Shown here piece after piece: positions 16,019-55,814 of a stretch of DNA of 64,000 bases. Positions within the stretch are counted from its first letter, which is position 1. Every line of letters starts with the position of its first letter. The DNA is taken from NCBI GenBank assembly GCA_018713435.1, contig DVOS01000022.1:35882-99881 (forward strand). Direction: 5' to 3'. The stretch is from Candidatus Merdiplasma excrementigallinarum. Its GTDB lineage: Bacteria; Bacillota; Clostridia; Lachnospirales; Lachnospiraceae. The notes beneath the pieces are model-generated. The model worked only from the letters and a program-made list of their open reading frames with translations, was not told where the DNA came from and did no database searches. Position numbers and translations under genes: made by a program.

Positions 16019-16176
16019 GTTACAAAAAGATTTCATTGCTTCCGGTACAGCCGGTGTTCACCTTGTCCTATCGACATCTGTCCGCAGTAAGCGGAATAAT
16101 CCGCCTGCTGCGGAACATCTGTCTCGGACATGTGTACACCGGCTGTACCGGAAGCATATGTACTCTTTTTTGTAAC
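16019..16176. repeat. Hairpin repeat family 1, copy 1 (88-bp core 16053..16140 plus copy-specific inverted outer arms)
   Basis: Core ggtgttcaccttgtcc...cggaacatctgtctcggacatgtgtacacc shared with copies at 48281 and 55652; outer arms gcttccggtacagcc/ggctgtaccggaagc are perfectly complementary. Confidence 0.9.
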
Positions 16177-16246
16177 TTTCCCTCACATTTATGATAGAAC
16201 GAGGGGGCTGCTTCATCATGAATTACATGATTTTGCAGCCCCCTCG
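16154..16246 (+). repeat. Dispersed 93-bp repeat family 2, copy A
   Basis: gcatatgtactctttttt...cgagggggctgcttcatcatgaattacatgattttgcagccccctcg; reverse-complement partner at 27817..27909. Confidence 0.9.
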
Positions 16247-16318
16247 TTACAGAACCCGGAGAAGAGGGGCTTCCCCGGGACTGTTTAACTTGGAATATCA
16301 TCCGACTTCTCAGTCATT

Positions 16319-17755
16319 TTAATAGAACCAGTGGTCTCCTATCTGAAGTCCGTGGCCTGCGCTGGTGTTAAAGTACAGCGCGCTGCCTACCGGATTGGAT
16401 CCTGCCAGAGCATCCGCCGCCGCGTCATAGCAGGTGCTGGGGACACCGCTTGCCAGGGCGCTGGCCAGTGTTCCGGAATAAGCCGGCGTAAACTGTCCGC
16501 TCTGATAGATGACTTCGCTGATGGTGTTGGGGAAGGAAGAGCTTGCCACCCGGTTCATCACCACAGCGCCTACCGCTACCATGCCCTCGTAGGGCTGATT
16601 GCCGGCCTCGCAGTAAATCAGGGCTGCCAGCAGATCCAGATCTCCGGAAACAGCGGAAGAAGATTCCGTGCTTTCCGTCTCCGTATATTCCGGCTCGGTG
16701 TATTCCGGCTCGGTGTATTCCGTCTCTGTGTACTCCGGCTCGGTATATTCGGTCTCGGTATAGGTATCATCCTCCACATACTCATCCGCCCCGTCTACGC
16801 TCTCCACATACTCTGTTTCCTCGGTGTAGGTATCATCATAATAGCTGTCATCGTAGGACTCATCGTAAGTGGTGTCATCGTAATAGGTATCGTCATAGGA
16901 CTCATCATAGGTGGTATCATCATAGTAGGTATCGTCGTAGGACTCATCATAGGTGGTGTCATCATAAGACTCCTCGTAATACCCGTCATCATAGGAGGTG
17001 TCGTAAGACTCCTCGTAATACCCGTCGTCATAGGAGGTGTCGTAAGACTCCTCGTAGTATCCGTCGTCATAGGACGTATCGTAGGACTCCTCATAATAGG
17101 TATCATCATAAGAAGTATCTTCCGTATATGTATCCTCTGTCCAGGTTTCCTCCGATCCTGCGGACTCTTCCATGGGAACAGCGGTATCTACCAGCAGCAC
17201 CCGGTTCACATCCTCGGAGGATACATAGGCCGTCCTGTCAGCTCCCAGCTGCACGCCCAGCCAGTGGCCCTCATCGCTGACCACCGCAAATGACTCGCCG
17301 TCGTCCGCTGTGTGAACAATGTCAGCGCAGGCGTCCGGATTGGAGAATACATAGACGTCGTTCCAGGATGTCTCCACCCCGTCGTCTCCGTAGTAATCCG
17401 CCAGTCCCTTGGCCTCTGTTCCGAATACCAGATAGTCATTCTTTATGTAGCCCTGCACATCACCGGAGCGTACCTCTGACCACTCGTCACCCTGGTAGAG
17501 AACCTCCACGGCGCCTCCCCGGTACAGGCATCCCACCACTTCTCCGTCCTCGCTGGCTGCGGAACGGATATTGGCTCCTGTATATACCGTATCGTCATTG
17601 GTCATGGCGATGTTGCTCCAGGCCTCATCTGAACCGCTGCTCATATCAATACTGAAGGCATTGTCGCTGGAAGCCATCGCGGTCATTCCCGCCGTCAGCG
17701 ACAGAGTCATTGCCGCTGCCGTGCAGACTGCCAATCGTCTCATACGTTTCTTCAT
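16319..17755 (-). CDS. SH3-domain cell wall hydrolase (SleB/CwlJ-like hydrolase_2 domain) with long Asp/Tyr/Glu/Thr repeat linker
   Basis: Signal peptide, SH3b-like segments, LLAALIYCEAGNQPYEGMVAVGAVVMNRV catalytic domain. Confidence 0.9.
   Translation of the reverse strand: MKKRMRRLAVCTAAAMTLSLTAGMTAMASSDNAFSIDMSSGSDEAWSNIAMTNDDTVYTGANIRSAASEDGEVVGCLYRGGAVEVLYQGDEWSEVRSGDVQGYIKNDYLVFGTEAKGLADYYGDDGVETSWNDVYVFSNPDACADIVHTADDGESFAVVSDEGHWLGVQLGADRTAYVSSEDVNRVLLVDTAVPMEESAGSEETWTEDTYTEDTSYDDTYYEESYDTSYDDGYYEESYDTSYDDGYYEESYDTSYDDGYYEESYDDTTYDESYDDTYYDDTTYDESYDDTYYDDTTYDESYDDSYYDDTYTEETEYVESVDGADEYVEDDTYTETEYTEPEYTETEYTEPEYTEPEYTETESTESSSAVSGDLDLLAALIYCEAGNQPYEGMVAVGAVVMNRVASSSFPNTISEVIYQSGQFTPAYSGTLASALASGVPSTCYDAAADALAGSNPVGSALYFNTSAGHGLQIGDHWFY
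16670..17115. repeat. In-frame tandem repeats inside the cell wall hydrolase gene
   Basis: DTSYDDGYYEESY (13 aa), TYDESYDDTYYDDT (14 aa) and TEPEY/TETEY (5 aa) units repeated several times each. Confidence 0.9.
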
Positions 17756-27816: not shown

Positions 27817-27909
27817 CGAGGGTGCTGCAAAATCATGAAATTCATGATGAAGCAGCACCCTCGTTCTGCCATACACGTGAGGGAAAGTTGCCAAAAAGAG
27901 TACATATGC
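27817..27909 (-). repeat. Dispersed 93-bp repeat family 2, copy B
   Basis: Reverse complement aligns to 16154..16246 at about 84/93 positions by hand; contains cgagggtgctgc...gcagcaccctcg hairpin. Confidence 0.9.
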
Positions 27910-48261: not shown

Positions 48262-48392
48262 AAAAAGCTTCCTGACACCCGGTGTTCACCTTGTCCTCCT
48301 GACAGCTGTCCGCACAGGTCGGAATCATCCGCCCTGTACGGAACATCTGTCTCGGACATGTGTACACCTGGGTGTACAGGAAGCTTTCTTTT
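48262..48392. repeat. Hairpin repeat family 1, copy 2 (88-bp core 48281..48368)
   Basis: Core matches copies 1 and 3; outer arms agcttcctgacaccc / gggtgtacaggaagct complementary. Confidence 0.9.
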
Positions 48393-51791: not shown

Positions 51792-51854
51792 GGAAATAAA
51801 AAGGGCAGATACTTTCGCACCCACCCAAAGAATCCATCTTACGTTACATTCTTC

Positions 51855-52017
51855 GATAGCGCTCCATCTCATCGATGGCAGTCACATGATTATTCACCCT
51901 GTGCCCAAGCATACAGGTTCAGGCTCTGTATCCTTTCGGCGTTTTCCCCTTTCCCTGGCCTTCCGCTGTACCTGAATACATCCGGTCAATTACTCATGAA
52001 ACACGCAACCTCTATCT
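51855..52017 (-). ncRNA. Lysine riboswitch (L-box) upstream of dapA-dapB-lysC
   Basis: Minus strand AGATAGAGGTTGCG...ATGAGTA...AAGGCCAGGGAAAGGGGAAAACGCCGAAAG...TGCTTGGGCACAGGG...GACTGCCA...GCTATC matches L-box conserved blocks in order. Confidence 0.93.
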
Positions 52018-52066
52018 AATTAAAATAACTATATCATCCCGGTAAATCCTTGTCAACCGCTTTGGA

Positions 52067-53762: not shown

Positions 53763-55589
<1,827 letters not shown>

Positions 55590-55610: not shown

Positions 55611-55783
55611 AAACTGCCGTTTCGACACGTTTCTGGCATTTCCGAACATCCGGTGTTCACTTTGTCCTTTCGACATCTGTCCGCACAGATCGGATGTCTC
55701 CGCTCTGTACGGAACATCTGTCTCGGACATGTGTACACCTGGATGTCCCGGAAACCGCCAGAAATTCTCTGCGGCAGTTTTTT
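55611..55783. repeat. Hairpin repeat family 1, copy 3 (88-bp core 55652..55739), fused into the typA terminator hairpin
   Basis: Core matches copies 1 and 2; outer aaactgccg / cggcagttttttt terminator stem plus intermediate complementary segments (tttctggc/gccagaaa; gaacatcc/ggatgtcc). Confidence 0.9.
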
Positions 55784-55814
55784 TATGTGATTTTTTTAAT
55801 ATGTCACATCTGCT

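Follow-up and report, generated by a model that had tools for sequence, protein, structure and literature searches.

A dispersed quasi-palindromic repeat of Lachnospiraceae with arms matched within each copy and a preference for gene 3' ends

ERIC (127 bp) and bcr1 are known as bacterial MITEs or palindromic repeats (PMC2267715, PMC10969869). The repeat described here shares with them a dispersed, intergenic and non-coding unit of roughly 100-200 bp, in the case of ERIC also the folding into one long stem-loop; compared by description rather than by sequence, it differs in having diverged yet matched arms and in occurring in full, half-core and coreless forms. A further resemblance is to SPRITE of Streptococcus pneumoniae, an interspersed repeat similar to rho-independent terminators that is known from a review (PMC10969869) and was likewise compared by description. 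With the REP/REPIN sequences and their RAYT transposase the likeness lies in extragenic palindromes behind genes, whereas the copy-rich draft genome G008 of the present family gave no match to a Y1 transposase. Template switching in inverted repeats, finally, is reported to homogenise arms and to invert spacers (PMC8604942, PMC8794818); the inverted repeats and RNA hairpins studied there resemble the present repeat in arm homogenisation, compensatory multi-base changes and spacer inversion, but their spacers comprise a few bases, while the interior inverted here spans about 100 bp or more.

The window, by which we mean the entire analysed stretch of 64,000 nucleotides from Candidatus Merdiplasma excrementigallinarum, contains three copies of an 88-89 bp core, each with complementary arms beside it and all annotated on the plus strand. 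The most diverged of them lies 3' of typA (53763-55589): its left outer and inner arm (55611-55650) base-pairs with the right arm (55740-55778), the core in between (55651-55739) has conserved internal loops and a variable inner stem, and a T tract (55778-55784) marks the stem end. The region 55611-55783 is predicted to fold into a single hairpin of -85.2 kcal/mol, compared with -43.6 +/- 4.2 kcal/mol for shuffled sequences (z = -9.9). The copy near ilvE is a shortened variant (left arm 48266-48279, core 48280-48368, right arm and then a T-rich stretch 48369-48386), and the copy at 16 kb is a standard member, with a left arm of the form common in its own genome (16012-16051), the core (16052-16140) and a right arm bearing a TCTTTTTT run (16141-16178). 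Besides typA and ilvE, genes for aspartate kinase, a SleB-like protein and an oxidoreductase neighbour the copies. A second, separate hairpin, hp2 (16200-16247, no strand assigned), follows 3' of the 16-kb copy as it does many copies in this genome; its family, with ATCATGAATTTCATGAT, also stands alone at many loci of the same genome. On the minus strand, hp2 (27817-27863) recurs next to an outer right arm remnant (27880-27909) in a coreless arrangement spanning 27817-27909. Other features of the window are a lysine riboswitch (51849-52022, minus strand; RF00168, 100.7 bits) and degenerate tandem repeats (16829-17140) within a minus-strand open reading frame (16319-17755) whose C-terminus matches SleB.

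The source genome (G000), a draft of 2.07 Mb that is 73% complete, holds 26 full or nearly full copies and about 10 shortened ones. Sequence outside the core had originally been taken to differ completely among copies; this applies to a minority including the ilvE and typA copies, which look like diverged versions of the common form, while the outer arms are common to a majority of the 26 full copies (TTGCAAAAAGATTTCATTGCTTCCGGTACATCC, core, TGGATGTACCGGAAGCATATGTACTCTTTTTTGTAAC). Among relatives, about 12 bp next to the core are also recognisably alike (GCTTCCTGAYATCC...GGATRTNCAGGAAGC). Some 45-50 nt away from the core, identity between copies has decayed to background; similarly, arm pairing in six groups of copies is high up to about 40 nt and at the level of cross-copy pairing beyond 50 nt, as exemplified by G006 with values of 0.92-0.95 for own versus 0.62-0.65 for cross partners between 10 and 40 nt. 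Weak terminal repeats, GGGGCTGYYGCAAAA or variants thereof, keep a nearly fixed spacing to the core, and exact inverted GGRGCTGYYGCAAAA pairs, again weak and variable as a motif, are separated by 169-170 bp in full copies and by less in shortened ones. The decay of identity and pairing together with the spacing of the terminal motifs, on which we based the unit size since greedy extension of stem ends was too noisy, therefore defines the repeated unit as the whole hairpin and not the core alone: a quasi-palindrome of about 42 + 105 + 42 bp, in total some 190 bases. What we describe is thus a dispersed non-coding repeat family of Lachnospiraceae with the order terminal repeat, arm, structured core, arm, terminal repeat. 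In the core, the letters of the internal loops are near-invariant, as is a T-T mismatch, and both are kept across genera, whereas the stems vary.

The core motif occurs in named genome records that belong mostly to Lachnospiraceae, including Candidatus Choladousia intestinipullorum (DVHT). Of 13 genomes from the genus of the window, 6 are carriers (G000, G008, G006, G012, G010 and G002), with 36 model hits in G008, where a subfamily has recently expanded, and 11 in G010, counts in which some copies are hit on the reverse strand as well. Strict scans, which miss weak copies, scored 6 of 397 genomes sampled from the family; among 391 sampled from the class, the window's own genome was the only one to score. 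The collections of phages, viral contigs and plasmids that were searched contained no similarity match, and a phage or plasmid origin was dismissed accordingly. Rfam yielded no family at gathering score for the repeat, a match to MIR1437 (70 bits versus a gathering score of 168) being taken as a hairpin artefact. A search for an insertion sequence with the same ends as the repeat found none; contig ends near the terminal motif in G010 revealed instead another structured repeat of about 400 bp (L313:1110-1700 and L323:200-780; also L316, L317 and L319); it is present in many copies, has no Rfam family, is predicted to form a very large branched fold (-245 kcal/mol for 591 nt), and its end adjoins the arms of the present hairpin element in L292-L298. 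Very long near-perfect palindromes, some with GGGGACGGTTCT, were encountered in G009 (L117 and L128) and G011 (L129), where they sit behind typA and ilvE in relatives devoid of the core.

The claim that the flanks are complementary within each copy was borne out far beyond chance, by the fold of the typA copy as well as across the genome. In 25 copies from the source genome, arms form on average 13.2 of 15 pairs with their own partner versus 11.1 with the partners of other copies, the highest of 2000 permutation means being 12.1; shuffles and permutations together rule out chance pairing. Differences between arms tend to be two-sided (GGGACATCC/GGATGTCCC, GGTTCC/GGAACC, GCGTCC/GGACGC, GGGCCATCC/GGATGGCCC), and in the hairpin alignment 15 of 35 pairs have changed on both sides. 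The covariation score is 0.192, compared with 0.096 for shuffled and at most 0.073 for slid controls, with the structure derived from the same alignment. GU and AC mismatches in the hairpin are equally frequent (61 versus 66), so that no GU excess singles out one favoured RNA strand. The arms do not appear to be fast-evolving, since arms and core have equally low rates (0.010 changes per site, flanks 0.025) between orthologues of the close sisters G010 and G012, a comparison resting on 12 changes. In G008 and DVHT, interiors are near-identical while the outermost 12 bp or so are copy-specific yet matched. This pattern is not well explained by slow drift; gene conversion of the interior among copies could account for it, as could insertion into hairpins.

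G010 and G012 share several orthologous copies and also offer three flank-matched sites at which the element is present in one genome and missing or reduced in the other; a short hairpin remains at one of these and none at the other two. At the first, the copy in G012 (L223) faces a G010 site (L254) with flanks that are 100% identical across 170 and 159 bp; the latter has no core, neither arm and no hairpin. No clear target duplication is visible there, a few bases of the site being different. At the second (L227 versus L269), the G012 copy lacks its right arm, the element is absent from G010, again with no hairpin and no visible duplication, and the neighbourhood is rearranged. At the third, behind a glyA-type gene, a full copy in G012 (L226) stands opposite a G010 hairpin consisting only of GGGGCTGTTGCA-TTTCA-TGCAACAACCCC (L267), with flanks that are 98-99% identical. 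This short terminal hairpin bears the element's own terminal motif and as such fits insertion into a loop as well as evolution of the whole hairpin; because the corresponding gene carries the element in G012 and, in full length and similarly spaced, in G000, the difference more likely reflects a loss in G010. At two other sites, the sister genome has a different GGGGCTG hairpin.

Shortened forms occur in graded sizes. Seven half-core copies of G000 lack 54 nt, as if deleted between GACATCTGT and GACATGTGT, and the junction of the coreless L135 lies at a common GTACA; exact microhomology at the junction amounts to 3-5 nt in 7 of 10 short copies and to 1 nt in the other 3. Copies in G006 and G008 grade in size between the full unit and a hairpin of 43 bp, and several of them retain parts of the inner arms. 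The short-loop relatives in the source genome mostly look like internal deletions. The interior has also been found in either orientation. At one orthologous site (G010 L244 versus G012 L230) it is inverted between collinear flanks (97% and 90% identical), the ilvE copies of G000 and DVHT are oriented one way and those of G010 and G012 the other, and in L002 and L012 the core is reversed relative to the outer arms; all genomes compared are draft assemblies, and assembly errors are a possible source of apparent inversions. As an alternative to template switching, recombination between the arms could also have produced such inversions.

Copies are concentrated where genes end. When orthologues of G010 and G012 are counted as one copy and genes are called by a simple ORF rule, 38 lie between convergent and 5 between divergent genes (p = 2.5e-7), and copies beside 3' gene ends outnumber those beside 5' ends about twofold (133-134 versus 66-69); between tandem genes both orientations are common (33 in plus and 20 in minus orientation). 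The median distance from stop codon to stem base is about 17 nt, and the 12 nt following the stem contain 5.3 T residues compared with 3.7 in controls (p = 5e-7 for enrichment). The copies thus resemble intrinsic terminators in having a hairpin at the 3' end of a gene and a T tract behind it, and since they favour 3' ends with T-rich sequence behind them, they probably act as intrinsic terminators or 3'-end hairpins. To this extent, the placement and the T-rich tail support the original reading of the outermost stems as rho-independent terminators, in the sense of a predicted role.

The original prediction offered two explanations for the matched flanks and held that either would be unusual: the element inserts into the loops of terminator hairpins, or the long hairpin is a 3'-UTR structure that evolves as a single whole. 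If a mobile core with its inner arms entered pre-existing terminator hairpins, the outermost stem would be host sequence, and one would expect matched, copy-specific outermost stems around near-identical interiors, as seen in G008, DVHT and G012, along with short hairpins opposite full copies, as at the glyA-type site and, in the form of the GGGGCTG hairpin, at the two further sites. The empty sites L254 and L269 are devoid of such a hairpin, though, and L254, where both outer arms are missing along with the core, shows just what the original prediction had named as refuting evidence. The outer ends carry a common motif with nearly fixed spacing to the core, several short hairpins retain inner-arm remnants, most coreless and half-core hairpins look like deletions, and the short G010 form at the glyA-type gene more likely arose by loss; the idea of insertion into terminator loops is consequently not supported, and we regard it as improbable. 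A related version, in which the interior is inserted or exchanged among gene-end hairpins, targeting hairpin centres rather than a sequence and leaving the outermost matched stem local, is viable because of the G008 and DVHT copies, but on balance we think it unlikely as well.

Two further readings appear more doubtful still. The core's internal loops might be a structured RNA motif to which a protein or RNase binds at the 3' ends of mRNAs, with the arms as a scaffold; loop letters and a T-T mismatch preserved across genera amid varying stems, and the placement at 3' ends, would be in line with this, but GU pairs are not in excess over AC mismatches on the core strand, both gene-relative orientations are common and Rfam holds no such family at gathering score, so that we give this reading little credence. 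Much the same low probability is assigned to a conventional MITE whose terminal repeats are recognised by a transposase, the hairpin properties being by-products. Terminal inverted repeats, albeit weak and variable, on a short non-coding unit, dispersed copies and the recently expanded G008 subfamily speak for it, but no clear target duplication was seen and no inverted pair of the same ends 0.5-3 kb apart, as expected of a longer autonomous element, was found in four draft genomes, which may hide one. The Y1 transposase (PF01797) had no match in the G008 and G010 drafts and is present in genomes without the element; as its presence does not track copy number, mobilisation by Y1/RAYT was rejected.

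Evolution of the long hairpin as one 3'-UTR structure, the second of the original explanations, is supported by the compensatory changes, by the in-place inversion of the interior, by the drop of pairing to background immediately beyond the unit and by the placement close behind stop codons. It also appears less unusual than had been assumed, since template switching is already established for inverted repeats. We therefore consider it reasonably probable that the whole hairpin is the evolving unit, remodelled by template switching and slippage and most likely serving as an intrinsic terminator or 3'-end hairpin. Points against this picture are the matched, copy-specific ends around near-identical interiors in G008 and DVHT, the short hairpin kept by G010 at the glyA-type site, the low rate of change in the arms and the three junctions with 1 nt of microhomology. 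The unit would have spread, or been inherited, in its entirety; the arms would then drift in sequence while complementarity is kept by polymerase template switching that copies one arm onto the other, with selection for the hairpin helping to keep them complementary. Template switching may also flip the interior in place, and replication slippage between short repeats would remove the core, giving rise to half-core or small hairpins.

At the gene ends of related species, the family provides a natural series of full, half-core, coreless and inverted forms, which could open to direct test the part that template switching plays when bacterial terminators are built and remodelled. The repeat family may, moreover, supply genomes with ready-made terminators that become shorter as they age.
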